64,000 nucleotides of DNA. Origin: Paramacrobiotus metropolitanus (Eukaryota; Tardigrada; Eutardigrada; Parachela; Macrobiotidae). Where the stretch lies: assembly GCF_019649055.1 (NCBI RefSeq), contig NW_026570277.1, forward strand, positions 310,001 through 374,000, read 5' to 3'. The notes beneath the pieces are model-generated. The model was not told the DNA's origin. It did no database searches and worked only from the letters and a program-made list of their open reading frames with translations. Position 1 is the first letter of the stretch. Each line of letters opens with the position of its first letter. The translations under genes and the position numbers were made by a program. Of the stretch, positions 4,861 through 39,244 are shown piece after piece.

Positions 4861-5329
4861 ACTTGATCGAGCCGCAACAGTAAATCTTTTGCACTCAAAT
4901 CTGAAACCCGAAAAGCTCTTTTGTAAAAAACTTCTTTATCTACAGCCTGATACCAAAAAACAAGGGGAGAAGAAGAAGTTCAGTGTGCCCAAAAAATGTA
5001 AAGATTTGCTAGCATTCCTCATTCGCTCGCTCGGTGCCCAGTCAGCCAGTGGAGGGCGGATATAAATTATTATCACCACGCTGTAATATACAACTAGCAA
5101 CGACCGCGGCGCGTAGCGCCGCGGATCCAACCAAGGTGGATTAATTTGTATTTTGTAGTATGTATTTATTAAAAGGGTAGCATTTCAAAACTTAGCGGAC
5201 GCTCTTAAATGGATCACGTTAACCTTTTCAATTAAAAAACTCACTCTTCTGTATGGTGTGTTTAGTTTTTACGCAGAATATTTAACGCGGACAGTTTCAT
5301 GTACCTAACCGTTAGCATAGCCGTTAACT

Positions 5330-6170
5330 CTCGAGTTCCTCCTTTACTATCGTGCGATCACGTTATGCCGTTACCTCTTGCGTAGTAATGCCAAACTATT
5401 ACGCGGTAACGTTACGTTGATTACCCTCTGCAATAAAGATACGTGGCTTACCGTAGTAGATTTTCGCGTGGTAACGTTACGCTGTTAAATCTTGCGTGGT
5501 AAAGTTACGCAGCTTGTTCTCGCGCGGTAACGTCACTCTGCTTCGTCTCACGTGCTTGCGTTGTGTCTCCTACTGTCGCGTTCTTACGTTACTCCACTTA
5601 CTTTTGCGAGATAACGCTACGCTGCTTCGAGTGGTTAAGAGGCGCCGCTTACTTTTACGTTGTAAGATTACGTTGCTTACACTTGCGTGTTCACGTTATC
5701 GCGCTTACTCTAGCGTGGTAACGTTACCGTGCTTACTTTCGCTCGGTAAGGTTACGTTGCTAACACTCACGTTGTATGATTACGCTGCTTACTCTTGCGT
5801 GGTTACGTTATTGCGCTTACTCTAGCGTGGTAACGTTAAGCTTCTAACATCCCCGTGGTAACGGTAGGTTGCTTACTCCCGCGTGGTAGCGTTATTACCT
5901 TACTCTAGCGTGGTAACTTTACGCCACTTACTCTCGCGTGGTAAGATTACACTAATCGCTCTCAGTAGTAGGTTTAAGTAGCTTTCTCTACTTAACGCTA
6001 CCTAACTGGTAACCTTTACGCTACTTACTCTCGAGTGGAAACTTCACGCTGCTAACTTTCGCCTGGTAACATTACTTAGTTTACTTACGCGTGGTAACGT
6101 TTCGTTGCTTACTCTCGCGTGGCAACGTTATTGCGGTTACTCTAGCGTGATTACGTCACGTCGCTAAGCG
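5330..6170. repeat. Array A: degenerate 28-bp tandem repeat in unit 1
   Basis: Consensus pieces are CGCGTGGTAACGTTACGCTG and CTTACTCTCG, period about 28 bp. Each good copy carries the 10-bp palindrome GTAACGTTAC. Copies are diverged. Confidence 0.8.
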
Positions 6171-6179
6171 GTTCACTAC

Positions 6180-6665
6180 GGATTAGGTTAGGTTTATTTG
6201 GTCGGTTGGCTGGGTTCAGCCGGTTCACTGAGATTTGGTTGGGTTCCGCTGGTTCAGTAAGGCTTTGGTTGGGTTCAGTCGGTTCAATCAGGTTTTGGTC
6301 GGTTCACTGAAGATTATGTTGGGTTCGGCTGGTTCGGTAGAGTTTTGGTTGGGTTCAGTTGGTTCAATTAGGTTTTGGCTGGGTTCAGTCGGTTCAATCA
6401 AATTTTGGTCGTTTCACTGAAGATTAGGTTGGGTTCGGCTGTTTCAGTAAGGTTTTGGTTGGGTTCATTCGGTTAGCTAACGTTTCGGGTGGTTTCAGTC
6501 AGTTCACTAAGTTTTAGGTTAGGTTCAGCTGGTTCACTAAGGATTTGGCTGGGTTCAGTCGGTTCACTGAGATTTGGTTGGTTTCAGATGGTTCAATTAG
6601 GTTTTGGTTGGGTTCAGCTGGTTCATTTTGTTTAGTAAGTGTGTTCAGCAGGTTCACTATGTTTA
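6180..6665. repeat. Array B: 30-bp tandem repeat in unit 1
   Basis: Consensus pieces are GGTTGGGTTCAGTCGGTTCA and CTAAGGTTTT. The 30-bp period leaves frames open as ten-residue peptide repeats on both strands. Confidence 0.8.
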
Positions 6666-6849
6666 GTAAGTTTGTTCAGTAGGTTCATTTGGCTTAGCAA
6701 GAGTTTTGGTTCTGGCCAATGAGAGCAATTTGGAGGCGGGAGCGTTATGGACAGAGAGTTCTGTCTTTATAGTTAAGACTAGCAACGACCGCGGCGCTAC
6801 GCGCCGCGGTTTCCACCCAAGCTTGCGTTGCGCTATCAGCGATGACATG

Positions 6850-8335
6850 GTTACATTACACGGTTTACTTTTACGTGGTTTCGTTACGGCGCTACGCTGT
6901 TAACTTTTGCATGTCTATCGTTATGCTTCTTTGTCTGGCGTGGTTACGTTACGCCGCTTATTGTCTTCCGGTAACGTTGTGATGCTAATTCTCGCGTGTT
7001 TTCATTACGCCGCTCACTTCCAGGTAAATACGTTACTTCGCTTGCTCTCTTGTGCTTACATTACGCCGACTACTTTCACGTAGTACCATTACGTTGCGTG
7101 CTCTCGCGCAGTTACTGTGCACGCTTACTCTTGCTTGATAACGTTATGCTGTTAACGTTCGCTCGATTACGTTATGCCGCATGTTCTAGCATGCTAACGT
7201 TACGCGTTTACTCTAAAGTGGTAACGCAATGCTGCTTACTCTCGAGTGTTTACGTAATTCTGTATACTCTCACTTTCTTTCGTTTAGCTGCTTATTCTCG
7301 TGCTTGCGTTACGCCGTTTAGTCTCTCGTGTGACGTTACGCTTGCTCACTTTCGTCTGGTCATGTTACGCCGCTTTTTCCACTCGGTAACGTTACACCGC
7401 TCACTCTCTCTTGGTTACGTTACCTCGCCTACTCTCGAATGGCCACGTTACGCGGCTTGCTCTCTCGTGTTATGTTTTCTCGCTTACTCTCGCGCGCTTA
7501 ATTTGGCCTGTTCACTTTCAGGTGGTAACCTACGCTGCTTAGTCTCGCACGGTCCCGTCATGCAGTTTACACTCACTTGATAGCGTTACGCTGCTTGCTC
7601 TCGCACATTAGCGTTTCGGCTCTTACTCTAGCTTAGAAACGTTAAGGCGCTAACCTTTGCGTGGTGAAGTGGTGCTGTTTACTCTCGCGTGGTAATGTTA
7701 CGATGATTACTTTCTCGTGGTAACGTTGCGCAGCTTACTCTTGCGTGCTACCATTACGCTGCTTTCTCGCGTGCTTATTTTCCGCTATTTCGTTTCGTGT
7801 ACTTATGTTACGCGCGACTACTCCGCGTGGTAACGTTACGCTGCTAAATCTTGCGTGGTAACGTAACGCTGCCCACTCTGGCGAAGTAATGTTATTTCGC
7901 TTACTCCAGTGTGGTGACGTAATGCATATTTCTCTTCCGTAATTACGTTACACAGCTTACTCTCGTGTGCTTATGTTTCGTCTCTTGCATTCGCTTACTC
8001 TCGCGTGCTTACGTTCTGCTGCATATTGTACTCTCGAATGGTAACGCTACTGCACGTACTTTCGCGTAAGAACGTTACGTTGCTTACTCTCGCGTGGTCA
8101 CGTTGGGCCAGTTACTCTCTCGTGATTACGCTACGCAGCTTCCTCTCGTGTGCTTACGTTTTGCGTCCTCCTGTCTTGTGCTCACGTTACGCTGCTGAGT
8201 CTTGCGTGTTCACGTTACGCAGCTTACTTTCGAAAGATAACGCAACGCTGTTTACTCTCGGGTTTTTATGTTACGCCGCTTACTTTTGCGTTGTGACTTG
8301 TAACAATACTTCGCTTACTTCCGCGGTATAACGTC
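6850..8335. repeat. Array A in unit 2
   Basis: About 50 degenerate copies of the 28-bp repeat with GTAACGTTAC cores. The open frames over it are by-products of the repeat. Confidence 0.8.
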
Positions 8336-8339
8336 ACTA

Positions 8340-9165
8340 ACTTCAGTAGATTCACTAAGGTTTTGGTTGGATTCAGTCAGTTTGCTAAGGTTAGGTTAGG
8401 TTCATTTGGATCAATAATGTTTAGGGTGGGTTTAGTCGGTTTACTGATGTTTGGTTTAGTTCGTCTGAATCTTTGACTAAAGATTCAGTTGGGTTCAGTT
8501 AGTTCATTTAAGGATTGGGTCAGGTTCAGTTGGTTCATTAAGGATTAGGTTGGGTTTAGCTGGCTCACTAAAGTTTTGACTGGGTTCAGCTGGTTCATCA
8601 AGGGTTCGGTTAGCTTCAGCTGGTTCAGTAAAGTTTTCAGTTGGGTTCAGTTGGTTCACTAACGTTTTGGTTGGGTTCAGTCGATTCACTACGGATTAGG
8701 TTGGTTTCAGCTGGTTCACTAAGGTTTTGGTTGGGTTCAGCTGGTTCATTAAGGTTAAGGTTGGGTTCAGCCAGTTCACTAACTTTTCGGTCGGGTTCAG
8801 TTGGTTCACTAAGGATTGGGTTGAGTTCAGGCGGTTCACTAAAGCTCAGTTTGGATTCACTAAAGTTCAGGTTGGGTTCAGCTGGTTCAGTAAGGTTTTG
8901 GTTGGGTTCAGCTGGTTCATTGAAGTTTTAATTGGGTTCAGCCAGCTCACAAACTTTTCGGTCGGGTTCAGTTGGTTCACTAAAGCTCAGGTTGGGTTCA
9001 CTAAAGCTCAGCATGGGTTCAACTGGTTCAGTAAGGTTTTGGTTGGGTTCATACGGTTCACTAAGTTTTTGGTTGGGTTCAATTGGTTCATTTTGTTCAG
9101 TAAGTGTGTTCAGCAGGTTCACTATGTTTATTAAGTTTCTTCAATAGGTTCAGTTCGTTTAGTAA
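8340..9165. repeat. Array B in unit 2
   Basis: About 27 copies of the 30-bp repeat, ending in a conserved tail (GTTCAGCAGGTTCACTATG) that precedes every type-a 5' end. Confidence 0.85.
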
Positions 9166-9242
9166 GTGTTTCGTCCTGACCAATGAGAGCGATTTGGAGG
9201 CGGGAGCGTTACGGACAGAGAGTTCTGTCTTAATAGTTAAGA

Positions 9243-12200
9243 CTAGCAACGCCCGCGGCGCTGACGCGCCGCGGCATCCAATGAAAGAAAAAACATCTAC
9301 TGCTTTTGCTGAATCGAAGGAAAGATCAGTACTGTTTTTGATGTACTACTGGTTGCAAATGAGCTTGAAAAAGCAGGACCGCCTACTGTACCAGCGAGTT
9401 TTATCAGTTATTTTTATTTTGTCAAGATCATTCCAAAATCTCCCGATAAACAACGTTTTTGGTTCGCTTCTTCCCAGCCGGAAGCAGCACCTTAATCGCA
9501 GAAAACTTTCGTGCCAGTGAAACGCAACATACAACTGACCGTGACAAAACACAGGAGATTTCAAAACAATACCGACATTGCTAAATGTTTGCCCTTCTGA
9601 TTTATTAATTGTCATTGCAAAAGCCATGCGGACGGGAAACTGAAGCCGATCAAAACGAAAAGGCATAAAGTCACCTTTAGCCTGCAATTTTATTCTGGGT
9701 ATCAGGACACGCTTGCCTTTGCTGGTTCCAGTAAGCACTTCACAGTCAAGCGTATGATGCAAAAGGCGCCGAATTATTAATTTCTACCCATTGCATAGTC
9801 CATGTTTCGTGTCAAGATTTCGTACAAGCGTCACCACAGTTAGCACTTTCAGAGTAAGTTTGTGTGGAGGCAGTCCGTTGACTCCGTTCGGCGTGAGCGT
9901 GTAAAGGAATTCTTCAGGAAACTCTGTCGGATCCTCCCCCTCTTCGCAAGTTATACTATCAATGCTCTCATACGTAACTGCAGCTCCCTCAATTCTTTCG
10001 ACTATCTCGTCATTAATTTCCAGCGTTTCTTCATTGGTGGGGCAAAGGATGACACTGCCCTATGGCTTTTCCGTGTTGTCTACTGGAATAATATCCCCAA
10101 AAACCTCTTGGATAATGCTTCCTGTAAGTTAATTTTCAATTTCACGGTTTGCCAAGGCAAAGTAAGCCACTTAACTGAAGCTGTGTTCCAAACCTTAGTA
10201 AGTTTGTTAAAACTTAGAAAACTACGAAGATTTGGATGAGTTAATGTATTATCAATATTTTAGAAGGATGTATTATCAAATGAAAACGAAATCCGGGGTA
10301 ACTGCTCTGAGGTATCTGAACTGATGCAGGTACCTCAGAGTTCGATTCGGGAACTTTGATTTCGTCGTTTTCGTCTACGGGGAGCTTTCCTTCACCAAGA
10401 CCCAACAGCCAGTGACAGAATTCCTCTTGGCCATTCTCCGCGCGCAAATTCTGATGCAGCTTAAAAGTTTTAAAGAGCCGCCATAACTGGGACCGTTTGA
10501 GAGAAGCAGCCAGCTGTTGGGTTTTGTTTCCACGTTCAATTACTGGCAAAACCTGTCTAAAATCGCCACCAAGAACTATAACTTTTCCCCTAAAAGGTAG
10601 ATCGTTTTGCATTAGTTCAAGAAAGCTGACGTCAATCGTCTCCAGAGCCATAGCAGATGACATCGGCGCTTCATCCCATAAAAATACTTTAGCATTGCGC
10701 AGCTTGACGCCTAAATGGTTACGACTTGATACGGCGAGGCGGGAATTGCTTTCTAATTTGAGCGGCAACCCTGTGCCAGTGTGCACCGTAGTCCCACGTG
10801 GCAGTAAATTTCCAGCAATTCCTGTGATAGCCATGCAAACAACAGAAATACCTTCCCCAGTTAACTGATGAGCAATGGCGGTAAATACAAAGGTTTTTCC
10901 AGTTCCACCTGGAGCGTCAACAAAAATGCAACGTTCGTTGGATCTGTCATGAACAGCGTCCAGAACTGCGTTCGCAACTGTTTTCTGTGCTTCGTTCATC
11001 GAAGCAAACTTTTCGCCACCTTTCTTTGTCTCTGCTTCCTTATCGCTGATTTCTTCTTGAAATTCTGAGGGACGGGGAGGCTCCGGAATTTGATACGGAC
11101 GAAGAAGGCTGACACCAAATGAATCCAGGCGTTTGTTTACATCGGTGTACGCAAAAAATATGGCTGCATCCGGTGTGCGGTTACGCCTGAAGTCTTCGCT
11201 CCTAGCCTGGTTGTAAGTCTGCCATAAATTACGGGCATCCGAGGGCGGAAGGTTACCATAGATCAGGATTGTCACAAACAGGCATCGCATAGCAGCTGGC
11301 ATAGCAGTCCCAGAAGCTTCTTCCATACACTGAATCCAGTGGTCGCTGTTCTCCAGCAACCCTCGTGCTCTCGCTGAATCCTCAAATGTAGCAAATGTCT
11401 CGCCATTTACCGATTGAAGGTCTGTAAAGCTTAGCGGCCCAGTAACATGGAGCAAAAGAAGGCGCAAGTAGAAACGTTCATAGTCCCGTGGATTGACGGC
11501 ATACGTGCGACCGATGATTCTTCCCCCCGTCTCGTTAACGCGCTTTTTCCAGGCACCTCTTTCAAAGCGATATTTAATTGGTATGTCGTGATACAGTATT
11601 GACCTGGCATCTGCATCATTTTGGTTGAGCTTAAACCATGCGGTGAGCATAGTGTCACGGGTAGAGGCGCTTTCCACAGCAGTTTCTTCTACTCCCGCGG
11701 CGAAATACACATCTTGTTCGTTAGGCTTGTGCACCGGCAATCGGACTAGAGTATGCGACATCGCGTGCATTTCGTACTTGCTGAGCCGCCAATGCGCTTC
11801 CGAGGCGCTGATGTACCGCGAATCAACGAACGCTTGAATTTCATCCATATTGAGGATTTTGTTGCTGCTCGAATCGGTCATAGTGATAAGGGCAACGTCG
11901 TGGCCTTTAAAAATATACTTGTAGAGGTACTTGAAACTTTTGATCGTAGCGCAAATTTTAACGTTGATGTGACAATCGTAATTCAGAAGAAGGTACGGAT
12001 TATATGGCACAATCCATTGATTGTCAACGGTGCGAGTGCCAACTGTGATGGTTCTGCCTGAATCCCTTCGCCGGTATTCGGGGTATCCGTCCTTATTTGG
12101 GTTGGTCTCCGGGCAAAAAGCTTTTAGGAATTTTGCATGACATACTCCCGTCTCTTTCATGCATACAGAACGGGGGATAATCTTTCCGCATGGCCCGTGT

Positions 12201-14809
12201 ATCATGAATTTTTTTATGGCTTCGTATAAACGCGGTTGCTGTGTCGGGTCCGGAATCTCGCAGCGGACAACTTTGTCAATGGTATCAGTGTCCACTCGGG
12301 CGTCTCTCTTATCCACAATCAAGAGAAGGTGGCAGTGAGGAAGGCCACGTTTTTGAAATTTAATGGTCTAAAAAGTTTATAAGGTTTATTACCCGGTGAA
12401 CCAAAACAAAAACTTTATTGAGGGCAACGAAATCAATTTTGCTTTTGTGAGTCCCAAGTATATTATTTCAACACTCACCATACAAAATGCGTCAACTCGG
12501 CCAAAAATTTCGCGGTTTTCAATGTCTTCCAGCAGAAATTTCAGCTTTAGCTTGAAGACCAGGTCAGGAAACTTTGGAGACCAGACTTTGGAAACCAGGT
12601 CAGGTCTGTCAGTAGCTTGTTGTCCCGGGTAAAGGTTATCCTGAATTTCAGACCACCTGGGGTCACACGTCATTGTCAAAAAAAGAAACGGTTTTCCAAA
12701 TTTCCGACAAAGAGACATAGCATCCGGGTAATTCTGACGCATTGCTCGTGGGCCTCCAGCAAAGCTAGAGCTCAGTACCACGGTGCGCCCTGGCGAAGCT
12801 TCGTGCGCCGATGCCGCCGACGCTAAATAATCAGACAGCCCTTGGTACGTTTCCACTCCCAATTTCTTTTGTTGCAGTCTCTGATACTGCAGGCGAGACC
12901 CTTCTACTTTAACGTACGAATCGACCAAGTACTGTTGGAACAATTTTTTGCCGCATAGGATTGGGTTGAAGTTCCCATGGTCAGCAATCCGGTAGCTATA
13001 GAACTGCCAAAAACATCGTAGTAAGAACTTCTTAGGCGACGGTTGGCTGCAGGCTAAATGGTTTTGCAGAAGGCAATAGCTTAGTTGGACCAACCGTTAC
13101 AGTAAGCTTATAGTTTTACTGCAGCGGTTTTAATGGATGTAAGTTTTTGCAAAGATAAGTAAATTTTCTTAAGTTTCGCAAAAATCTGGTGGCTGCTCAG
13201 TTCTCGGCATTAGAACAGCTTGACTACACCCACCTCCAACTGGGATATTTCGCTGCGCCCCCGAGTCCGCTCCATTTCTGGGTGGAAGCCTTTAGTCCCA
13301 AGCGGGAAGAATAACGGATAACACATTGGCTCGCAGTTACCATTCAAGGTGGGGATCGTTTTCTGTCTAGTAGATTTGCAGTGGACTGCCAGACAATGCT
13401 CCGGGAAGCCTCCCTCATTCCCACCGACTATAATGGCCGCAACCTCGTTACTCGTCGGCGCTGCGTACTTACTCCTTGGTTTTCGCCGGTTGTTGTCGAA
13501 AAGGAGTTTTACTTCCAGTGGTTGGCGGTTATCTTGCTGAGCTTTCTGTAATTCCTCTTTCTCTACTTCATGCATCATTCGATAAGCTGCAGCGAAGGGG
13601 TTAACGGCTCTTATAACCGCTTCCAATTCATCAAGTGTTTTAAAATCCTGGTGCTTGTTCTGTTGATTAGTTACGCGAACCTCAGCAGCATCGGCGCTAT
13701 CAAGGAAATATAGCTGCCCGTATGACGGTTCTTTGTCAGTTTCTGCTTTTGCAGGTCCAAGAAAATGGTACAGCTGACCTGATATTCTGTATGGACAGGG
13801 CCCGCGTCCTGGTGGCTTGTCCAGTTTTGCCACATTAGAGGCAAAAGCCAGTGAGCTGTTGTACTGTCTTATATGCTCCAGAAAGTTGTTGCTAGCCGGG
13901 TGTTCCCCGAGCAGAAGCGCCTTCAAAAGCTGGGGAAATCCTTCCGGTACGACAGGATCCAACACGACTGCACCTTTTTGACAGCAAGTCGTTAAAATGT
14001 TTTTGTCCTCGCCAGTCAACTCAGCTTCAAAATGCCTCGCTCCACAGGCAGAACAAACGCAGTCCATAGGCCCCAGTTCCAACAGTGCGGTGTGTGAATC
14101 AGAGTACTGTTGAGCTTCGAACCGTCCAGATTTTTCAGTTTTGTTTTCTTGCCGTCGACTTTTATGCTGCCAAGCATCGTGACGTAACCGGTCGAGACAT
14201 TCACTTTCAGTTTCGTTCAGTCTCTTTTGATGCTTTCTTTCTGAGTTTTCCAATTGCTGGCGCATTCGGTCGTCCCCTGACATATTTTCTCGCCATGTTC
14301 GAATTCTCTCCATTCCTGTCTTCGGACCGCGCGAACTGCTGAGCTGCTGACCCTTTAACAAATCTGGAAAAGGTATCATAAAAAAGCCAACACTCAATTT
14401 CTATGCGAGATGCAGAAAGACAATCATGGAAAGAGAACAGTATTGCTTTTCTTACCGTAAATAACGGAGAGCTGGGAGTCAAATTCCACTTCGTGGAGGA
14501 GCGTCTGGCATGTTACAGTTTTAACCCCAGCAACTAACCCACTGACTTCAATAAATCCACGCTAAGGTCCGAGAAACTGCAGTTATACCCGGTGCGCTTA
14601 ATGATTCTGGAGATAGTATCAAAGCATAACTTGTGTGTGTGTGTATCAAAGCATGACTTGTGTGTGTAGTAAGTGTGTTCAGCAGGTTTACTATAGTTTG
14701 TGAGTTTGTTCAGTAGGTTCAGTTCGTTTAGTAAGTGTTTCGGTTCTGACCAATGAGAGCGATTTGGAGGCGGGAGCGTTACGGACAGACAGCTCTGTCT
14801 TAATAGTTA
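9243..14809 (-). mobile_element. Helitron unit 3, the only coding unit
   Basis: The 3' terminus is CTAG at 9243-9246 with hairpin GCGGCGCGTCAGCGCCGC. The 5' side ends at 14809, where the minus strand reads TAACTATTAAGACAG; the expected leading TC is missing compared with unit 2. The Rep/helicase gene fills the unit and no satellite array is present. The 5' flank (14,650-14,809) matches the type-a 5' end of units 1, 2, 7 and 11, so this is the coding relative of the array A/B units. Confidence 0.85.
9428..14556 (-). pseudogene. Helitron Rep/helicase (RepHel), disabled copy
   Basis: Exons on the minus strand: 14363-13234, 13003-12479, 12367 to about 10,270, and 10121-9428; a further 5' exon ending near 14,456 is likely. 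Exon 1 has a CxxC...CC zinc-finger-like element (CSACGARHFEAE) and the Helitron N-region (YNSSLAFAS, YRISGQLYH). Exon 2 has LFQQYLVDSYVKVE and Rep motif FLFLTMTCDPRW. The splice to exon 3 builds FQKRGLPHCHLLL, the HUH metal site, followed by the catalytic-Tyr region YLYKYIFKGHD. The helicase follows: Walker A DAPGGTGKTF, Walker B LWDEAPM, GDFRQVLPV, then ILCPTNEE, LPPHKLTLKVL, and QFPVRMAFAMTINKSEGQTF. Lesions: in-frame TAG at 10062-10060, TAG at 9786-9784, and a frameshift near 9515-9526, after which ARKFSAIKVLLPAGKKR continues in another frame to a TGA at 9430-9428. RepHel cuts and joins single strands in rolling-circle transposition. This copy should not make a full protein. Confidence 0.85.
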
Positions 14810-14884
14810 CAAGCAGGACGCGCGGCGCTTACGCGCCGCGCTGACGCGGCCACGGTTTCAAACGGCTCAAAAGTGTGAGTACCA

Positions 14885-17800: not shown

Positions 17801-18007
17801 AATTAAAGTCTTAAAAGATGGTACCGGTAAGTAAATGAAAGTTACCAGGTTTTTTAAAGAACTAATGTTTGGAAGCTTTGTGAGGAGCAGTGCTGAAGCT
17901 GGGATCCGGTTTATCAGGCGAAGGTTTTCACAGGTGAAGGTACTAAGTTTCGGAAACTTGGTAAGGACAAACGCGCAAAAGCACAGGTTTAAGGGGCTGC
18001 AAAAGCT

Positions 18008-18122
18008 TAAAACCCGCTAGGCGGGTTCTGGCCAATGAGAAAGGTTAGGCTAGTTCTGGCCAATCAGAACGTTTTGGAGGCAGGAGCGTTCCGGAATAAC
18101 GGTTCTGCTTTAATATATAGGA
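18008..18122 (+). promoter_or_regulatory. Promoter-like block at a Helitron 5' end (representative)
   Basis: On the plus strand the order is CCAAT box (GGCCAATGAGA, then GGCCAATCAGAACG), GC-rich box (GGAGGCAGGAGCG) and a TATA-like TTTAATATATAGG about 50 bp further on, directly before the next unit's hairpin. The same order occurs at the other 5' ends (6778, 9242, 14809, 19891, 20674, 23283, 24059, 24837, 27118, 28844, 29702, 31163, 33576), with single or double CCAAT boxes; that at 19891 is degenerate. Read this way the promoter points out of its own unit into the next. On the minus strand the TATA-like sequence is the unit's own 5' tip. Activity is inferred. Confidence 0.4.
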
Positions 18123-20674: not shown

Positions 20675-20939
20675 CTAGCAGCGACCGCGGCGCTACGCGG
20701 TGTCCAACGATGGTGGGTTAATTTGTAGTTTGTGTTTACCAAAAGGGTAGCATCAAACTTTTGAGAGGTACTTGGCAGTGGACTTGGCAGTGAGCTTAGC
20801 TGCGGTCTTTAGCAGTGGCGGATCACGTTAATCTTTTCAACTAAAGAACTAACTCTACTCAGTAGAAGAAATTTAGTTTCGACGTAAACAGTTAACGCAG
20901 ACAATTTCATGTACCTAGCCGTTAGCATAAAATTGAACA

Positions 20940-22200: not shown

Positions 22201-22204
22201 TCAT

Positions 22205-23190
22205 GAAGCGGTTCACTAAGTATTAGGTGAGGTTCAATTGGTTCAGTGTTGTTTAGTTTGGGTCCAGTCGGTTTGATAAAGATTAGGTTAGGTTCTTTTA
22301 GTTCAGTAATGTTTAGGTAGGGATTAGTCGGTTCACTATTAGTGAACCGACTAATCCCTACCTAAACATTACTGAATTTAGGTTGGGATCAGCTGGTTCA
22401 CTAAAGTTCTGTTTGGTTTCAGTAGGTTCTCTAAAAATTTGGTTGAGTTAGGTTTATTCACTAATAATTTTGTTGGGTTCAGTCGGTTGACTAACTTTTC
22501 GGTTGATTCAGTTGGTTCAGTAAGGTTTTAGTTGGGTTCAGTCGGTTCAATGAAGATCAGATTGGGTTCGGCTGGTTCAGTAAGGTTTTGGTGTGGGTTT
22601 AGTCGGTTCATTAACTTTTTGGTTGGGTTCATTTTGTTCAGGAAAATTTTAGTTGGGTTCAGCCGGTTCACTAAAGATTAGGTTGGGTTCGGCTGGTTCA
22701 GTAAGGTTTTAGTTGAGTTCAGTCGGTTCATTAACTTTTGTTTGGGTTTAGTCGGTTCATTAACTTTTTTGTTGGGTTCAGTTTGTTCAGTTTGGTTGGG
22801 TTGGTAATTTTGGTTGGGTTCAGTCGGTTCACTGAAGATTAGTTTGGGTTCGGCTGGTTCAGTAAGGTTTTAGTTGAGTTCAGTCGGTTCATTAACTTTT
22901 TGGTTGGGTTCAGTCGGTTCACTGATGATTAGGTTGGGTTCAATCGGTTCATCAACTTTTCTGTTGGGTTCAGTCGGTTTATCAACATTTTTTGGTTTGG
23001 GTTCAGTTTGTTCAGTAAAATTTTGGTTGGATTCAGTCGGTTCACTGAAGATTAGGTGGGGTTCAGCTTGTTCAGTATGGTTTTGGTTGAATTCAGTCGG
23101 TTCATAACTTTTTGGTTGGGTTCAGCTGGTTCATTTTGTTTAGTAAGTGTGTTCAGCAGGTTCACTATGTTTAGTAAGTTTGTTCAATTG
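22205..23190. repeat. Array B in unit 7
   Basis: 30-bp repeats (GGTTGGGTTCAGTCGGTTCA plus CTAAGGTTTT), interrupted by a perfect 37-bp-arm palindrome at 22302-22376. Confidence 0.8.
22302..22376. repeat. Perfect palindrome with 37-bp arms inside array B
   Basis: Arms 22302-22338 and 22340-22376 are exact reverse complements around a single T at 22339; the centre reads GGTTCACTATTAGTGAACC. The left arm is ordinary array B sequence in the normal direction and the right arm is the same sequence inverted, so it looks like a recent fold-back duplication. Confidence 0.9.
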
Positions 23191-23283
23191 GTTCGCTTTG
23201 TTTAGGAAGAGTTTTGGTTTTGACCAATGAGAGCGATTTGGAGGCGGGAGCGTTACGCACAGAGAGTTCTGTCTTAATAGTTA

Positions 23284-24059
23284 CAAGCAGGACGCGCGGC
23301 GCTTACGCGCCGCGCTGACGCGGCCCACGGTTACAAACGGCTTAAAAGTGTGGGTCTAAAGGCCATCAGTGACCAAAGGCTTAAAAGGCCCTCAGTGAAC
23401 AAAGGCTTAAAAGTCCTTCTGTGACCAAACGCCTAATAGGCCTTCAGTGGGCAAAGGCTTAGAAAACCGTCGGTGACCAAAGGATTAAAAGGCGTTCGGT
23501 GACCATAGGCTTGAAAGGCCTGCGGTGGCCAACGTACCACACGCGTGGCCTTCGGTGACCAAAGGCTCAATAAGGCAGGTACCACGCGCGTGGCCTTCGG
23601 TGATCAAAGGCTCAAAAAGCCGGGTACCACACGCTTGGCTTTCGGTGACCAAAAGCTAAAAAAAAGCGGGTACCGCATGCGTGGCCTTCGCGGACCAAAG
23701 GCTCAAAAGGGCGGGTACCGCACGCGGGACTTTCGGTTACTAAAGGCTTAAAAGACCGTACCGGTAAGTAAATTGAAGTTATCAGGTTTCTTAAAGAACT
23801 AATGTTTGGGAGCTTAGTAAGGAGCAATGCTGAAGCTGGAATCCGTTTTATCAGGCGCAGATTTTCACAGGTGAAGGTACTAAGTTTCGGAAACTTGGTA
23901 TGGACAAACGCGCAAAAGCACAGGTTTAAGGGGCTGCAAAAGCTTAAAACCCGCTAGGCGGGTTCTGGCCAATGAGAAAGGTTAGGCTGGTTCTGGCCAA
24001 TCAGAACGTTTTGAAGGCAGGAGCGTTCCGGAATAACGGTTCTGCTTTAATATATAGGA
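23284..24059 (-). mobile_element. Helitron unit 8 (type II 3' end, short array C)
   Basis: A 776-bp unit. It has CTTG plus hairpin and the GACGCGGCCCACGG flank at 23284-23335, degenerate 26-45-bp array C repeats at 23,345-23,765, and 5' end TCCTATATATTAAAGC at 24059 with two CCAAT boxes. Confidence 0.8.
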
Positions 24060-24837
24060 CAAGCACAGCGCGCGGCGCTTACGCGCCGCGCTGCAGTGCG
24101 AAGGCGGTTCTTGTCGGCTAGGCTCTTTTTGCTAAACGAATCGAAGCGAAACGGTTTTATATGCTAAGTAAGTCTTATGGAAAAGGGAATACAGTTAATT
24201 TATCTAGAAACAGGTTAAACCAAAATTCTTCTGTTACAAAACCCTTAAAAGCGTGGACAAATAATGCGTAACCTTCGGCTACCAAAGGTTTAAAAGAGCG
24301 AGTGCCGCACGCATGGCCTTCGATGACCAAAGGCTCAAAAAGGCGGGTACCGCACGCGTAGCCTTCGGTGACCAAAGGTTCAAAAAGGCGAGTACCGCAC
24401 GCGTGGCCTTCAGTGACCAAATGCTCAAAAAAGCGGGTACCGCACGCGTGGCCTTTGGTGACCAAAGGCTTAAAAGTGCAGGTAAAGCACTCGGGGCTTT
24501 TGGTTACTAAATGCGTAAAAGTTGGGACCGCAAGGTTTGTTAAGGTAATTAAAGATATCAGGTTTGTTAAAGAACTATGGCTTTGAAGCTTAGTAAGGGG
24601 TAAAGATAGATAAGAGTGGGATCCGGTTTATCAGGCGAAGGTTTTTACAGGTGATGGTACTAAGTTTCGGATACTCAGTAAGGACAAAGACGTAATAGCA
24701 CAGAGTTAAGGGGCTGCAAAAGCTTAAAAGTTGCTAGGCGGGTTCCGGCCAATCAAAAACGTAAGGTTTTTTCTGGCCAATCAGAAGGTTTTGGAGGCAG
24801 GAGCGTTCCGGAATCACGGTTCTGTTTTAATATTATA
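24060..24837 (-). mobile_element. Helitron unit 9 (type III 3' end, short array C)
   Basis: A 778-bp unit close in structure to unit 6. It has the type III 3' end at 24060, array C at 24,270-24,520, and a 5' end at 24837 reading TATAATATTAAAACAG with the TC lost or altered. Confidence 0.78.
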
Positions 24838-25029
24838 CAAGCACAGCGCGCGGCGCTTACGCGCCGCGCTGCAGTGCAAAGCCGGTTCTTGTCGGCTGGG
24901 CGTTTTTGCTAAACGAAACGAAGTGAAACGGTTTTATATGCTAAGTAGGTCTTATTGAAAGGGGAATACAGTTAGCTAGAGACGGGTTTGTAACCCGAAA
25001 TTCTTCGGTTACAAAACCCTTTAAAGCGT

Positions 25030-25915
25030 GGACACATCACGCGTGGCCTTCGGGTACCAAAAGCATAAAACGGCGGGAACCGCACGCGTGGCCTTCGGTG
25101 ACCAAAGGCTTAACAGGGCGGGAACCGTACGCGGGGCCTTCGGTGACGAAAGGCTCAAAAGGACGGGTACCGCACGCGGAGCCTTCGGTGACCAAAGGCT
25201 TAACAGAACGGGTACCGCACGCGGGGCCTTCGGTGATCAAAGGCTCAAACGGACGGGTACCGCACGCGGGGCCTTCAGTGACGAAAGGCTCTAAAGAACG
25301 GGAACCGCACGCGGGGCCTTCCGTGACCAAGGGCTCAAACGGGCGGGTACCGCACGCGGGGCCTTCGTTGACCAAAGGCTCAAACGGACGGGTACCGCAC
25401 GCGGGGCCTTCGGTGACGAAAGGCTCTAAAGGACGGGTACCGCACGCGGGGCCTTCCGTGACCAAGGGCTAAAACGGGCGGGTACCGCACGCGGGGCCTT
25501 CGTTGAACAAAGGCTCAAACGGACGGGTACCGCACGCGGGGCCTTCGGTAACGAAAGGCTCTAAAGGACGGGAACCGCACTCGGGGCCTTCGTTGACCAA
25601 AGGCTCAAACGGACGGTACCGCACGCGGGGCCTTCGGTGACGAAAGGCTCTAAAGGACGGGTACCGCACGCGGGGCCTTCGTTAACCAAAGGCTCAAACG
25701 GACGGGTACCGCACGCGGGGCCTTCGGTGACCAAGGGCTCAAACGGACGGGTACCGCACGCGGGGCCTTCGGTGACGAAAGACTCTAAAGGACGGGTACC
25801 GCACGCGGGGCCTTCGGTGACCAAGGGCTCAAACGGACGGGTATCGCACGCGGGGCTTCGGTGATCAAAGGTTTAAAATGGCGGGTACCGCACGCGTGGC
25901 CTTCGGTGACCAAAG
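25030..25915. repeat. Array C, CGGGG variant, in unit 10
   Basis: About 19 copies of a 45-bp unit (GGGTACCGCACGCGGGGCC then TTCGGTGACGAAAGGCTC). The GC-rich variant forms its own homogenised block, so array C has been amplified locally more than once. Confidence 0.9.
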
Positions 25916-25974
25916 GCTTCAGGGGTGGGTGCCGCAAAGTTCGTTAAGGTAATTAAAGTTATTGGGTTTGTTAA

Positions 25975-26722
25975 GACGTGCAAGAGGGTCTGCAGTGCAC
26001 TCTGCAGTTTGCTTCGGTCTATTCGCTATCGTAATTCGGAAAAGACTGAAAAGAGATGAATAGATTCGAGCAGGATACACAGTATTTGCTTTTCGCCGCA
26101 TGGCCCGGTTTGTATGCAATCGACTGTGTGGTCAAGCAGTCTTCGTGGGCCGACCGACTGACCGAATGGGTGCCGGCAGGCTGGCAGACAGAATGCTCTC
26201 TGCGTAGCTTCAATGGTCACTTGCCTGTTGTACTGAACTTTGACGCGATAGTGGCTTCTAATTTATCAAGTCCAAGAAGATATTCCTGTTATAGTGTACA
26301 TTGTCGGCATCAAAGTGAACAGGAAGACAATTACTCGCGCTATCCGTTGCACTAATTTTTATCTCGATATGACGTCGCTTTCGCACGGAATTTTGGTTTA
26401 AAATTTTGTTTTTGATAGTTCTACAGCGTTTTTTTCGAATTTTTGAAAACCCTCCTAGCAACGGATAGTCGACATCAAGATCTATCATAAGGCGATGTAT
26501 CGTCCTAACCGGGTGAATAGTGAATATTTTTACCGGGGTCGAAGCAAAAAATTAATTTCCCCATTATTTTGTTAATGACCGCACAAAACTTCATAGAAAA
26601 ATTCTCAGGTGTTAGCACAACATCTTGGTGGCATACGGCAGTAGTCAAGTTAACCGTACATTAACCACCGAGCGCACACTAAAAATTAGCGCAAGGGGAC
26701 CATATGTTGGGTACCCCTCGTC
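25975..26722. mobile_element. TTAA-flanked insertion in unit 10
   Basis: The segment is bounded by TTAA at 25971-25974 and 26723-26726. Sister units have GTTAAAGCACTAAGGTC at this point; here GTTAA is followed by the insert and then TTAATGTACTAGGGTC, so one TTAA was the target. The ends GACGTGCAAGAGGG and CCCCTCGTC are weakly inverted. TTAA targets are used by piggyBac and Kolobok elements. No transposase is encoded; short frames of up to 99 residues lack recognisable domains. A captured host fragment is an alternative. Confidence 0.6.
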
Positions 26723-26905
26723 TTAATGTACTAGGGTCTTGAAGCTTAGTAAGGAATAAAGCTAAATGTGAGATTCGGTTTACATTAACCACCGAGCGCA
26801 CACTAAAAATTAGCGCAAGGGGACCATATGTTGGGTACCCCTCGTCTTAATGTACTAGGGTCTTGAAGCTTAGTAAGGAATAAAGCTAAATGTGAGATTC
26901 GGTTT
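26658..26905. repeat. Exact 124-bp tandem duplication
   Basis: 26658-26781 is repeated without visible change at 26782-26905. Each copy spans the right end of the TTAA insertion and part of the Helitron 5' region, so the duplication came after the insertion. Confidence 0.9.
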
Positions 26906-27299
26906 ATCAGGCGAAGGTTTTACAGATAAATGCACGAAATTTCGGAAGCTTATTAAGGATAAAGGCGTAACAGCACTGGTTTAAGGGGCTGCAAAAGCTT
27001 AAAAATCGCTAGGCGGGTTCCGGCCAATCAGAAACGTAAGGCTCGTTCTGGCCAATCAGAACGTTTTGGAGGCGGGAGCGTTCCGGAATAACGGTTCTGC
27101 TTTAATATATAGGATATACAAGCACAGCGCGCGGCGCTTACGCGCCGCGCTGCAGTGCAAAGGTGGTTTTTGTCGGCTGGTCCTTTTTGCTAAACGAATT
27201 GAAGTGAGACGGTTTTATATGCTATGTAAGTCTTATTGAAAGGGGAATACAGTTACTGTATCTACAAACGTGTTAAACCGAAATTCTTCGGTTACAAAA

Positions 27300-27535
27300 C
27301 GCTTAAAAGAGTTGACACATCATGCGTGGCCTTCGGTTACCAAAAGGGTTAAAAAAGCGGGTACCGCACGCGTGGCCTTCGGTGATCAACGGCTCAAAAA
27401 GGCGGGTACCGCACGCGTGGCCTTCGGTGATCAAAGGCTCAAAAAGGCGGGTAACGCACGCGTGGCCTTCGGTGACCAAAGGCTCAAAAAGGCTGGTACC
27501 GTACGCGTGGCCTTCGGTGACCAAAGGCTCAAAAG
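27300..27535. repeat. Array C block in unit 11
   Basis: About five 45-bp copies, truncated at the switch to array B. Confidence 0.85.
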
Positions 27536-28745
27536 GATCAGGTCAGGTTTAATTGGTTCACTAATGTTTAGGCTGGGTTCAGTCGCTTTGCTAAGGATTA
27601 GGTTTGGTTTTTTTGGGTAAATAATTTTTAGGTTGGATTTAGTCGGTTCACTGATGCTTTTAGTTGGGTTGATTTGTTTCACTGACTTTTAGGTTGGGTT
27701 CAGTCGGTTCGCTAACTTTTTGGTTGGGTTCAGTTGGTGCAATCAAGTTTTGGCTGGGTTCAGACAGTTGGTTGAAGATTACGTTCAGTTCGGCCGGTTC
27801 AGGAAGCCTTTGGTTGGGTTCAGTCGGTTCAATCGGGTTTTGGTTGGGTGCTGTCAGTTCACTTAGGATTAGGTTGGGTTCAGCTGGTTCACTAAGGTTT
27901 CGGTAGGGTTCCGTCGGTTCGATAACTTTTCTTTTGGGCTCAGTCGGGTTTGGCTGGTTTAGCAAGGTTTTGTTTGGGTTCAGTCGGTTCGCTAATTTTT
28001 CTGTTGGGTTCAGTTGGTTCGATCAGGTTTTCGTTGGGTTCAGGTTGGGTTCGGTTGCTTCAATCAGGTTTTAATTGGGTTCAGCTGGTTCACTAAGGTT
28101 CTGGTTGGGTTCAGCTGGTTCACTAAGGTTTTGGTTGGGTTCAGTCGGTTCACTAACTTTTCGGTTAGGTTCAGTCGGTTCACTGAAGATTAGGTTGGGT
28201 TCTGCTGGTTCAGCAATGTTTTGGTTCGGTTCAGTCGATTCACTAACTTTTCAGTTAGGTTCAGTCGGTTCACTGAAGATTAGGTTGGGTTCTGCTGGTT
28301 CAGCAAGGTTTTGGTTCGGTTCAGTCGTTTCACTTAGGATTAAGTTGGGTTCAGCTGGTTCGCTAAGGTTTTGGTTGGGTTCAATCAGTTCGCTAACTTT
28401 TCGGTTAGTTTCAGTTGGTTCAATCAGGTTTTATTGAGGTTCAGTCGGTTCACTAAGGATGAGGTGTGTTCGGCTGGTTCGCTTACTTTTCGGGTGGGTT
28501 CAGTTTGTTCAATTAGGTTTTGGCTGGGTTCAGCTGGTTCACTAAGGTTTTGGTTGGGTTCAGTCGGTTCACTAACTTTTCGGTTAGGTTCAGTCGGTTC
28601 ACTAAAGATTAGGTTGGGTTCTGCTGGTTCGCTAAGGATGAGGTTCTGTTGAGTCGGTTCACTTAGGTTTTGGTTGGGTTCAGCTGGTTCATTTTGTTTA
28701 GTAAGTGTGTTCAGCAGGTTCACTATAGTTTGTGAGTTTGTTCAG
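27536..28745. repeat. Array B block in unit 11
   Basis: About 38 copies of the 30-bp repeat with some higher-order repetition (a near-60-bp pair of units near 28,140-28,340). Confidence 0.85.
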
Positions 28746-28844
28746 TAGGTTCACTTTATTTGGTAAGTGTTTTGGCTCTGCCCAATGAGAGCGATTTGGA
28801 GGCGGGAGCGTCACGGACAGACAGCTCTGTCTTAATAGTTAAGA

Positions 28845-29702
28845 CAAGCAGGACGCGCGGCGCTTACGCGCCGCGCTGACGCGGCCCACGGTTTCAAGCA
28901 GCTTAAAAGTGTGGGTGGGTACCGCACGCGTGGCCTTCGGTGACCAAGGGCCTAAAAGGCCATCGGTAACCCAAAGGCCTAAAAGGCATTCGGTAACGAA
29001 AAGCTTAAAAGGCCTCCGGTAACCAAAGGCTTAATAAGGCAAGTACCGCACGCGTGGCTTTCGTGACCAAAGGCTTAATAAGGCGGGTACCGCACGCGTG
29101 GCCGCGTGGCATTCGGTGACCAAAGGCCTAAAAAGCCTTCGGTGACCAAAGGCTTGAAAGTCTTCGGAGGCTAAAGGCCTAAAAGCATTCTGTGACCCAA
29201 AAGCTCAAAAGGCCTTCGGTGACCAAAGGCTTAGTAAGGCGGGTACCGCACGCGTGGCCTTCGTGACCAAAGGCTTAATAAGCCTTCGGTGACCAAAGGC
29301 TTGAAACGTCTTGGGAGGCTAAAGGCCTAAAAGGTCTTCGGTGACCGAAGTTTTGGAAAGCCTTCGGTCATCAAAGGGTACAGCTTCTGCGTGAAAACTA
29401 CAGCTTCTTTAAGGTTTGTACGCTAAAAAGTCGTAATGCTGGTTTTAGCCAATCTAGTACCAAGGTTCGAAAGCTTGATAAGCGTTAATGCTGAAGGTAG
29501 GATTTGGCTATTCAGGTAAAAGCTTGCATAGGTTTCAAAAGCTTCGAAAGGACCAAGCTAAAGGGAGTATCTGGTTCATTTAACGAAGTCGAAAAGTCTA
29601 AAAGGCTGTACAGGCATAAAAGCCCTAATGCTGGTTCTGGCCAATGAGGAAGCTTTGGAGGCGGGAGTGTGACGCACAGACAGCTCTGCTTTAATTAAAT
29701 GA
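28845..29702 (-). mobile_element. Helitron unit 12 (type II 3' end)
   Basis: An 858-bp unit: CTTG and hairpin at 28845, diverged array C copies to about 29,370 (period 26-45 bp), then a 5' end at 29702 reading TCATTTAATTAAAGCAGAGC, different from the others. Confidence 0.78.
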
Positions 29703-31163
29703 CAAGCAAGACGCGCGGCGCTTACGCGCCGCGCTGACGCGGCCCACGGTTACAAACGGCTTAAAAGTGTGGGTCTAAAGGCCATCAGGGACCAAAGGCT
29801 TAAAAGGCCTTCAGTGACCAAAGGCTTAAAAGGCCTTCAGTGACCAAAGGCTTAAAAGGCCTTCGGTGACCAAAAGCCTAACAGGCCTTCAGTTGGCAAA
29901 GGCTTAGAAAACCGTCGGTGACCATAGGCTTAAAAGGCCTTCGGTTGCCCACGTGCCACACGCGTGGCCTTCGATGATCAAAGGCTCGAAAAGACAGGTA
30001 CCGCACGCCTGGCCTTCGGTGTCCAAAGGCTCAAAAGGGCGGGTACCGCACGCGGGGCCTTCGGTGACCAAAAGCTCAAAAAGACGGGTACCGCACGCGC
30101 GGGCTTTGGTTACCAAAGGCTTAAAAGGCCTTCGGTGACCAAAGGTCTAAAAGGCCTTCAGTGGGCAAAGGCTTAGAAAAACCGTCGGTGACCAGAGGTT
30201 TAAAAGGCGTTCGGCGACCATAGGCTAAAAAGGCCTTCGGTGGCCAACGTACCACACGCGAGGCCTTCGGTGACCAAAGGCTCAAAAAGGCGGGCACTAC
30301 ACACGTAACCTTTCGTGACCAAAAGGCTCAAAAAAGCGGGTACCACGCGCGCGGCCTTCGGTGATCAATGCTCAAAAACGCGGGTACCACACGCCTGGCT
30401 TTCGGTGACCAAAGGCTCAAAAAGGCGGGTACCACGCGCGTGGTTTTCGCTGATCAAAGGCTCAAGAAGGCGGGTACTACACGCGTAACCTTTCGTGACC
30501 AAAAGCTGGAATGGGCGGGTACCGCACGCGTGGCCTTCGGTGACAAAAGGCTCAAAAAGGCGGATACCGCACGCGTGGCCTGCGGTGACCAAAGGCTTAA
30601 AATGGCGGGTGCCACGCGCGTGGTCTTCCGTGATCAAAGGCTCAAAAAGGCGGGTACTACACGCGTAGCCTTTCGTGACCAAAAGCTCAAAAAGGCGGGT
30701 ACTACAGGCGTAGCCTTTCGTGACCAAGCTCAAATGGGCGGGTAGCGCACGCGTCGCCTTCGGTGACCAAAGGCTTAAAAAGCAGGTACCGCACGCGGGA
30801 CTTTCGCTTACTAAAGGCTTAAAAGGTGGTACCGCAAGGTAATTAAAGGCTTAAAAGACGGTACCGGTAATTAGATTAAAGTTATCAGGTTTCTTAAAGT
30901 ACTAATGTTTGGACAGCTTAGTAAGGAGTAATGCTGAAACTGGGATCCGGTTTATCAGGCGATGGTTTTCACAGGTGAAGGTACTAAGTTTCGGAAACTC
31001 GGTAAGGACAAACGCGCAAAAGCACAGGTTTAAGGGGCTGCAAAAGCTTAAAACCCGCAAGGCGGGTTCTGGCCAATCAGAAAGGTTAGGCTGGTTCTGG
31101 CCAATCAGAACGTTTTGGAGGCAGGAGCGTTCCGGAATAACGGTTCTGCTTTAATATATAGGA
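29703..31163 (-). mobile_element. Helitron unit 13 (type II 3' end)
   Basis: The 3' end at 29703 has CTTG and the GACGCGGCCCACGG flank. Array C is at 29,755-30,870, mixing 26-bp and 45-bp spacing. The 5' end at 31163 reads TCCTATATATTAAAGC with two CCAAT boxes. Confidence 0.8.
29755..30870. repeat. Array C block in unit 13
   Basis: Mixed 26-bp (AAAAGGCCTTCGGTGACCAA) and 45-bp forms. The dyad core is kept while the KpnI/MluI part is dropped in the short form. Confidence 0.8.
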
Positions 31164-33576
31164 GAAGCACAGCGCGCGGCGCTTACGCGCCGCGCTGCAG
31201 TGCAAAGGCGGTTCTTGTCTGCTGGGCTCTTTTTGCTAAACGAATCGAAGTGAAACGGTTTTATATGTTACATAAGTCTTATTGAAAAAGGAATACAGTT
31301 ATTGTACCTAGAAACAGGTTAAATCGAAAATCTTCTGTTACAAAACGCTTAAAAGCATGGAAAAATATTGCGTAACCTTCGGTGATCAAAGGCTTAAAAG
31401 GGCGGGTACCGCACGCGTGGCTTTCGGGGACCAAAGGCTTAAAAGGTCTTCGGTGTCCAAAGGCTTGAAAGCCTTTGTTTACTAAAGGCCTTCGGTAACC
31501 AAAGGATTAAAAGGGCGGGTACCGCACGCGTGGCTTTTGGTGACCAAACGCTCGAAAAAGCGGGTACCGCACGCGTGGCTTTTGGTGACCAAAGGCTCGA
31601 AAAGGGGGGTACCGCATGCGTGGCCTTCGGTGACCAAAGCCTCAAAAAGGCGGGTACCGCACGCGTAACTTTCGGTGACCAAAGGCTTAAAAGGTCTTCG
31701 GTATCCAAAGGCTTGAAATTCTTTGGTTACTAAAGGCCTTCGGTGACCAAAGGCTTAAAAGGGCGGGTGCCGCGCGCGTGGCTTTCGGTGACCAAAGGCT
31801 TAAAAGGTCTTCGGTGTCCAAAGGCTTGAAATCCTTTGGTTACTAAAGACCTTCGGTGACCAGAGGATTAAAAGGGCAGGTACCGTACGCGTGGCTTTTA
31901 GTGACCAAAGGCTCAAAAAGGCGGGAACAGCACGCGTGGCTTTCGGTGACCAAAGGCTCAAAAAGGCAAGTTCCGCACGCGTGGCCTTCGGTGTCCAAAG
32001 GCTGGAAAGCCTTTGGTTACTAAAGGCCTTCGGTAACTAAAGGATTAAAAGGGCGGGTACCGCACGCGTGGCTTTCGGTGACCAAAGGCTCGAAAAAGCC
32101 TTCGGTGACTAATGTCCTCAAAAGGCATTTTGTGACTAAAGGCCTAAAGGACCTTCGGTGACCAAAGGCCTTAAAGGCCTTCATTAACCAAAAGATTAAA
32201 ACGGCTTCACTGACCAAGGGCTTAAAAGGCCTTCGGTGGTCAAAGACTTAGGCAACCTTCGGTCAACAAAGGCCTTAGGGTCCAAAGGCTTTCGGTAACC
32301 AAAGGCCTGAAAAGCCTTCGTCGACCAAAGGATTAAAAGGCGTTTGGTTACCAAAAGCTTAGATGGCCTTTGTTGACAACAAGCCTTCAATTACCAATGG
32401 CTTAAAACAGTGGGTGCCGCACGCGTAGCCTTCGGTTGTAAAGGGCTTGAAACGGATGACACCGCACGCGTGGCCTTCTGTAACCAAAGGACTTCGGTAT
32501 GCAAAAGCGCAGACGGCTGTCGGTGACCAAAAATTAAAAGCCTTTCGGTTGCCAAGAGCTCTGGTGACCAAAGGATAAAAACCCAGCAGTAGTCAAAGGC
32601 TAAAAATGCCCCCATTACCCGAAGGTTTAAAACGCCTTCAGTGACCAAGGTCTTAAAAGGTCTTCGGTGACCAAAGGCCTTCCGTAACCAAAGGCCTAAA
32701 AGGCCTTCGGTGACCAAAGGCCTTGGGTGGCCATAGGCTTGAAAGAACTTTGGTGTGAATAGGCTTGAAAGCCTTCGGTGACAAAAGGCTTAAAAAACCA
32801 TTGGTCAGAAAAGGCTCGAACGGTCTTCGGTTACAAAAGGTTTTCGGAGACCAAAGGCTTAAAAGGCCTTCGGTGATAAAACGCTTATTAGACCTTTGGT
32901 TACGAAAGGCTTAAAAGGGTGGATTCCGCACGCGTGGCCTCAGGAGACTAAAGGCTTCAAAAACCATGAGTGATCAAAGGGTTAAAAGGCTTTCGGTTAC
33001 CAAAAGCTTAGAAGGCCTTCGGTGACAAAAGGCCTTCAGTGACCAAAGGCTTAAAAAAGTGGGTACCGCGCGCGTAGCCTTCGGATGTTAAGGGCTTGAA
33101 AGTTTACGTTCAAAGTTTAGTTTACGAATCTTTCCGGTTGCTTTAAAAATCTTTTGAAAGCTGAGTAGTGGGTTTGAACACGGCACTTCTGGAGGGTACA
33201 GGTCGAACTGGGAGCACAGTTTGATCTGGTAGAGTATGATGTGGTACAGCTGACTTAAAAGATCTGATGGTTCTGGTAGATCTGCTAGTTGTGGCTGATC
33301 TGGTGATTTTGATAGTTCTGGCTGATCTGGCAGTTTTGGCTAATCTGGTGGTTCCGACTAATCAAGGAAAAATTGGTGCAGGTACTAAGGTTTCGAAAGC
33401 TTAGTAAAAGCTTTTGTCTGTTAGCAACGAATGTAAAAAAAGGCTGTACAGGCCTGAATGCCGTACGACCGGTTCTAGCCAATCAGAAGGTATGGATGGT
33501 TCCGGACTTCTGGCCAATCAGAAACGTTTGGAGGCGGGATCTGTTCGAACAGAGAGTCCTGCTTTAATAAACTGGA
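31164..33576 (-). mobile_element. Helitron unit 14 (type III 3' end), right end of the array
   Basis: The 3' end at 31164 has CTTC in place of CTTG. Long diverged array C is at 31,370-33,110, then GT-rich degenerate repeats. The 5' end at 33576 reads TCCAGTTTATTAAAGCAGG, as in unit 5. Host T follows at 33577. Confidence 0.8.
31370..33110. repeat. Diverged array C in unit 14
   Basis: Short-form repeats (GGCCTTCGGTGACCAAAGGC with AAAAGG spacers) dominate; 45-bp forms occur at 31,500-31,690 and 31,880-32,080. This is the most diverged block in the concatemer. Confidence 0.75.
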
Positions 33577-39240: not shown

Positions 39241-39244
39241 AGAA

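Follow-up and report, generated by a model that had tools for sequence, protein, structure and literature searches.

Helitrons that lie head to tail are known from several lineages, and published accounts of them invoke either read-through or consecutive insertion. Head-to-tail junctions and tandem arrays occur in plants and bats (PMC5876387); the arrays of bats and silkworm have been ascribed to a termination signal that was bypassed, and in bat and maize dissimilar Helitrons lie immediately next to each other (PMC4067079). In the maize r1 region, two unlike adjacent Helitrons meet at a G/T junction that was read as the product of consecutive insertions, with the order, into a 5' end (AT) or a 3' end (GT), left open (PMC2267711). 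Copies of FoHeli in Fusarium and Metarhizium insert at or near the 5' ends of other copies, with duplicated 5' termini and, in Metarhizium, three elements in tandem (PMC5148889). Helraiser inserts at A^T (the caret marking the insertion point) with an AT-rich preference strongest on the 3' side and with TT, AC and AA targets rare (PMC4778049), and an active wheat family also has an AT preference (PMC13286980). Here we describe an array of 14 Helitrons in the tardigrade Paramacrobiotus metropolitanus, located in a 64,000-nucleotide (nt) stretch of assembly GCF_019649055.1 (contig NW_026570277.1, positions 310,001 to 374,000), hereafter the window.

The array occupies window positions 5094-33576, where 14 5' cores alternate with 14 3' ends, all in one orientation on the minus strand, and together tile exactly 28,483 bp, as an earlier sequence-only reading had proposed. 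Units are numbered 5' to 3' on the minus strand, from U1, which starts at 33576, to U14, which ends at 5094. The array is best read as a stack of individual canonical Helitrons from one family group, most of them non-autonomous, and it probably arose, in a judgment of moderate confidence, by stepwise insertion of intact copies at the 5' ends of copies already resident. Both tandem Helitrons and self-insertion at 5' ends have been published before; what is new is the length of the array, its mixture of units, and a footprint displaced 3 nt into the 5' end (the +3 position). The literature searched, which leaves out most subscription papers, yielded no report of such a footprint and none of 14 unlike units in one run.

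The head-to-tail junctions resemble those of bats, plants and silkworm (PMC5876387, PMC4067079), but unlike those arrays as described, runs in this genome contain up to 14 unlike units of 0.78 to 5.6 kb and carry nested 3-nt footprints. The maize r1 pair, as described, is only a dimer and has no footprint of order (PMC2267711). Insertion at the 5' ends of resident copies is shared with FoHeli, which differs in having Helitron2-like termini and short runs (PMC5148889), and A^T insertion with AT-richness on the 3' side is shared with Helraiser, for which the covered parts of the source note no preference for resident 5' ends (PMC4778049). The canonical Helitrons of the fungal HELPO type have the same 3' hairpin, CT[A/T]G tip, AT insertion without duplication, AT-rich flanks and RepHel-type frames (PMC4289320); what sets the present elements apart is that roughly half of the examined 3' ends run into another copy.

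The units show the features of canonical Helitrons (Helitron1), namely a 5' TC, a 3' tip of CT[A/T]G, a 3' hairpin, insertion at A^T without target-site duplication, and a Rep plus PIF1-like helicase in U12. The canonical 3' tip is CTRR, a pattern to which CTTG does not conform in the strict sense; CT[A/T]G tips have been described in Pleurotus (PMC4289320). The T^T or T-rich site that marks Helentrons (Helitron2), by a rule given in PMC5148889, was not found, the base ahead of the element being A in nearly every case (see below). Nor is this a tandem array of one element, whose neighbors should be alike: adjacent units were similar (80% identity over half of the shorter unit) in 7 of 54 pairs, no more than in shuffled orders (mean, 4.8; 338/2000), with contig C7 as the exception.

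Although the array is long and mixed, as the sequence-only reading had emphasized in calling it unusual, it is not unique. It is the longest run among the loci examined, but 87 of the 166 3' ends considered (fetched loci plus the window) lead directly into another 5' end. A run on contig C52 comprises 13 units; one on C10 shows at least 7 starts, with no 3' end found for the last of them, and one on C322 has at least 6 units, provided that 36584-44028, a partly unfetched stretch with a Helitron_like_N match, is a single unit. The count of 166 follows removal of four spurious 3' ends and enters L021/L022 and L043/L071 separately, the latter two being near-duplicate loci. Long stretches with Helitron_like_N matches, like U12, lie inside runs at C10:304746-312745 and C322:36584-44028. 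A genome search for Helitron_like_N returned 79 matches, some of which are pieces of one gene.

Termini and insertion site

A pattern consisting of the hairpin, CTWG and a following T matched 124 times in the 169.8-Mb genome (100 of these matches were listed), and the reversed control pattern matched 0 times. After repeat removal, genome searches gave 170 3' ends (at most 2 mismatches) and 84 5' cores (at most 3 mismatches), the latter sought with patterns of types A and B only, such that other 5' types were picked up just in fetched loci. Loci were retrieved around all 170 3' ends except five (C39, C84, C120 and two on C90). Both 5' and 3' ends also occur singly, bordering host DNA. When the flanks of 30 loci were joined and searched against the genome, at least 7 (L012, L042, L056, L057, L058, L061 and L082) matched paralogous sites over 97 or more of 100 bases across the join; the match was of equal length at L012, L058, L061 and L082, and differed by a few bases at L042, L056 and L057. 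This search scored 40 of 753 candidates, so the remaining 23 of the 30 sites are not thereby shown to be matchless; among them, L035 matched in part, with about 80 bases spanning the join at 80%. A genome search for an empty site of the window array found none.

Because the ends are found apart at host boundaries and paralogous sites match across the joins, the proposed 5' and 3' ends are confirmed as true termini rather than one internal motif, and the clear cases show no target-site duplication. A direct repeat of about 19 bp, now diverged, is common to the two outer flanks of L012 (on C53); it probably predates the insertion rather than being a target duplication, since the paralogous match at this join is of equal length. 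Palindromic target sites were considered and rejected: the joined sites on C52 and C7 have strong inverted repeats, but the mean over 31 loci did not exceed that of re-paired flanks (49/300; folding energy, 8/100).

An A directly precedes the outer 5' end in 36 of the 39 flanks compared. Four of these boundaries were placed ahead of an extra TCN (N being any base), with A in 3 of the 4, and the set leaves out the degraded-hairpin junctions L055, L089 and L011, the second L018 end, and minisatellite false matches. On the other side, the base next to the tip is T in every one of the 77 distinct terminal 3' flanks, which are A/T-rich from +6 to +10 and have T at +8 in 81% of cases (78 flanks, 77 distinct, after exclusion of L049 and the dubious second ends of L043 and L071, with the near-duplicates L043 and L071 both kept). 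The insertion site is thus A^T followed by an ATTA-like block, and the elements' own 5' ends bear a similar block. The window array has ...TATATATA ahead of U1 and TTGTATATTACAG behind U14, outer flanks that look as for one insertion at A^T.

The likeness between 5' ends and insertion sites was quantified with a weight matrix built from the terminal 3' flanks alone and scored on window host DNA and on element 5' ends. In a leave-one-out test, real flanks ranked at a median in the top 6.3% of host T positions. The tips of eight element types ranked in the top 6-14%, and the site at +3 ranked in the top 0.18% in the TCCTATATATT type, the top 1.8% in the TCTTAAC type and the top 4% in the TCTTACAT type. 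In TCATT types the +3 site ranked at 27-30%, and three of the types tested have no T at +3. By this measure the 5' end looks like a target, with the best predicted spot at +3 in three types.

Displaced junctions and probable stepwise growth

No shift is seen at 66 of the 87 junctions, although one of these 66 is odd. Of the rest, 11 lack a TCN, 6 have an extra TCN, 2 have 4 extra bases and 2 are otherwise shifted, making 3 nt the most common shift. The junction table was curated by hand, with 16 false junction calls removed, L038 added, and L019 and window U6 reclassified. Missing TCNs are confined to the unit types that were assigned a good +3 site (11 of 49, versus 0 of 38 in the remaining types; Fisher exact test, P = 0.001), and excluding the two hand-reclassified rows changes little (9 of 47 versus 0 of 38, P = 0.003). 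This grouping was made after most displaced units had been seen, and two N-type units in the good group have no T at +3. At host-facing 5' ends, a missing TCN occurs in 0 of 39 cases (P = 0.017).

An insertion at +3 should leave a bracket, in which an extra TCN is followed, further 3', by a unit without that same TCN. Five nested brackets were identified: U9-U11 within U12 in the window, two on C52 (one inside the other) and two on C10. When junction labels, which were compiled by hand, were shuffled across runs, 5 brackets were reached in 18 of 20,000 trials (17 of 20,000 after later fetches).

These observations suggest the following scheme. A RepHel transposase would join each new copy between the A and T of a site of the form A^T-N4-6-ATTA, which the resident 5' end (T-C-...-ATTA) mimics; the same position is presumably also where the donor is nicked. 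New copies would then often enter exactly at an older copy's tip or, where the fit is best there, 3 nt further in, keeping the same orientation because the motif is asymmetric, and each newcomer's own 5' end would become the next landing site. An enzyme that nicks 5' ends to begin transposition may leave or hold those ends as acceptors. We infer recognition of resident 5' ends by the enzyme, together with the order of most insertions and 5'-side growth at exact junctions. The self-targeting signature is supported, not proved. That the 5' terminus serves both as donor nick site and as preferred target (tip and +3), favored about ten-thousand-fold, with one-directional arrays forming an ordered record of insertion, is put forward more tentatively, as a possibility that we consider somewhat short of probable.

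Several results weigh against stepwise growth at 5' ends. When labels are shuffled within rather than across runs, at least 5 brackets appear in 1,134 of 20,000 trials (1,108 of 20,000 after later fetches), so we regard the bracket evidence as modest. A clear partner is lacking for 6 of the 11 displaced units (U6, U8, two on C5, one on C22 and one on C80, the candidate partner of the last carrying a different letter), and 7 of 12 extra-TCN traces are unpaired. Partner brackets predicted before retrieval for C5 (two traces) and C22 both failed to appear, ruling out universal pairing, and in further C10 DNA up to position 326,000 a predicted partner was not encountered. The bracket model is therefore right for some cases at most, and the remainder must be explained by traces since lost or by TCNs that went missing in another way. 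No age gradient is evident over all adjacent pairs, the closer outside relative belonging to the 5' unit in 28 and to the 3' unit in 26. The order of units shared between arrays exceeds that in shuffles both at 80% identity (24 versus about 10.5; 40/2000, and 11/1000 in a rerun) and at 88% (2 versus 0.17; 15/1000). Finally, site preference alone, assuming 340 such positions, predicts only about 3 to 6 per 100,000 insertions at resident tips, against 52% observed, a gap that calls for additional active targeting or for a copying route that has escaped notice.

Competing routes to an array

A copying route of this kind is the one proposed for bat and silkworm arrays (PMC4067079): the 3' hairpin is ignored, two or more units are copied and inserted as a block, and rounds of this enlarge the array. 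The sequence-only reading had offered such rolling-circle read-through as one of two routes, and it draws support from unit orders being shared more often than in shuffles at 80% and at 88% identity. It is further favored by the array on C7 (L008, 1002068-1009927), whose three neighbors, 91-92% alike, make it the best candidate for a true multimer, and by the resemblance of U6-U7 to a pair on C5, the second order-sharing pair at 88% (89% and 88% over about 0.5 kb each, with a displaced 5' end leading both). Shared order falls to the shuffle level at 85%, however (2 versus 1.0; 281/1000), and at 90% consists of a single pair (1 versus 0.05; 50/1000) that lies within the C7 array itself. Neighboring units are usually unlike, and a dimer common to C52 and C154, considered as a copied block, was rejected, being 94% identical in one unit and 84% in the next. 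Block copying or local multimers may account for C7 and possibly for U6-U7, yet they have not been established as the usual route, and we consider read-through unlikely as the general origin of these arrays.

The other route in the sequence-only reading, insertion at the 3' tip of an existing copy, fares less well than insertion at the 5' tip. New copies would enter at CTWG^T, where the downstream host T-N-ATTA remains a good site, and the retained host flank does still fit the matrix; exact junctions look identical whichever side grows, and the maize dimer report left both routes open (PMC2267711). Yet this route requires G^T, when host-facing ends show A^T almost throughout, and the 3-nt footprints sit inside 5' ends, making growth at the 3' tip a less likely origin again than read-through. 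The sequence-only reading had itself leaned toward stepwise growth plus recombination, and although the stepwise part is supported, there is little sign of recombination. Homologous exchange could join circles or ectopic copies to residents, or unequal crossing-over could enlarge arrays, given that minisatellites and termini are common to the units and that joined-end circles are documented for Helraiser (PMC4778049). U4 does mix two end classes, but only 3 of 112 units do so (2 among 89 array members and 1 among 23 solo copies), so that end-class chimeras give no signal of recombination, with the restriction that this comparison sees exchange between classes and not within one. Recombination does not predict displacement to +3, and as the builder of the arrays we rate it improbable. 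Least credible of all is an assembly artifact, which we consider very improbable: the order of units is known from assembled contigs alone, but contig C57 spans 949 kb, and a second array of 13 units and many shorter runs occur on other, mostly large contigs. False chaining by sequence identity is likewise unlikely, because the best relatives of the units have a median identity of 87%, with 95% or more in only 6 of 110.

Returning to insertion at 5' ends, the ages of the window units can be gauged from their relatives. The best relatives are most distant for U8, U13 and U14 (72-76%, as against 82-93% for the other window units). For U13 and U14 this fits what is expected if they are the oldest, but it is confounded with unit type.

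Units of the window array and what target-like 5' ends would mean

The 5' core of every window unit ends in CCYGCCTYCAAA, and its 3' end consists of a GC-rich hairpin and tip. The sequence-only reading had described units that abut without filler, two 5' ends lacking the leading TC, and hairpins with CTAG or CTTG tips throughout, each of which holds in large part. Eight of the 13 junctions are exact; of the others, U4/U5 carries 4 extra bases (TATA), U8/U9 carries 3 (TCT), and U6, U8 and U12 are without their first TCN. In 11 of the 14 units TC stands at the junction or no more than 4 bases from it, the two 5' ends already reported as lacking it (14809 and 23283) being joined by a third at 24837. 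The tips comprise 9 CTTG, 4 CTAG and 1 CTTC (at 31164), and 13 of 14 hairpins were recovered by fuzzy search, that of U8 (20675) being degraded.

At the 5' extreme of the array, U1 (31164..33576; minus strand, as are all units) follows a host A, begins with TCCAG and ends in CTTC. U2 (29703..31163) and U3 (28845..29702) begin with TCCTATATATT and TCATTTAATT, respectively, and both end in CTTG. U4 (27119..28844), the class-mixed unit, combines a 5' TCTTAACTATT with a CTTG (CTG-class) 3' end. The extra TATA precedes the TCCTATATATT of U5 (24838..27118), which ends in CTTG and contains a 124-bp sequence tandemly duplicated at 100% identity (26657-26906). U6 (24060..24837) begins with TATAATATT, its missing piece (TCC) being a hand reading, and U7 (23284..24059) begins with TCCTATATATT; both end in CTTG. 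U8 (20675..23283), which begins with TAACTATT, lacks TCT and ends in CTAG, contains a perfect inverted repeat with two 37-bp arms flanking one base (22302-22376).

The bracketed units follow. U9 (19892..20674) has an extra TCT, the piece that U12 is missing, ahead of TCCTATATATT; U10 (18123..19891) begins with TCCAGTTTATT and U11 (14810..18122) with TCCTATATATT, and all three end in CTTG. Many window units are rich in 26-, 28-, 30- and 45-bp minisatellites, the longest 45-bp array being that of U11, where about 60 copies (15086-17784) make up most of the unit; related 45-bp arrays occur in several others. U12 (9243..14809) begins with TAACTATT, without TCT, and ends in CTAG. It matches Helitron_like_N (PF14214, 7.8e-40) and a PIF1-like helicase (PF05970, 1e-52) in separate open frames and has a putative HUH-like HCH motif; family matches were sought in U12 plus a few flanking frames. 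U13 (6779..9242) begins with TCTTAACTATT and U14 (5094..6778) with TCTTAACTATA, and each ends in CTAG, followed in U14 by the host sequence. Adjoining the array is a 118-bp tandem repeat of about 6 copies with a 92% match (3689-4389). Elsewhere in the window, a 54-bp unit is tandemly duplicated at 100% identity (57193-57300), and a frame at 2-565 matches CxC5, a KDZ transposase-associated cysteine cluster (E = 1.2e-6).

Through the 3-nt footprints and the target-like 5' ends, the side on which Helitron arrays grow can be put to the test, and this genome, with roughly half of its examined 3' ends chained, is well suited to that purpose. If 5' ends are favored targets, arrays would keep the time order of their insertions and would act as sinks, limiting damage elsewhere in the genome.

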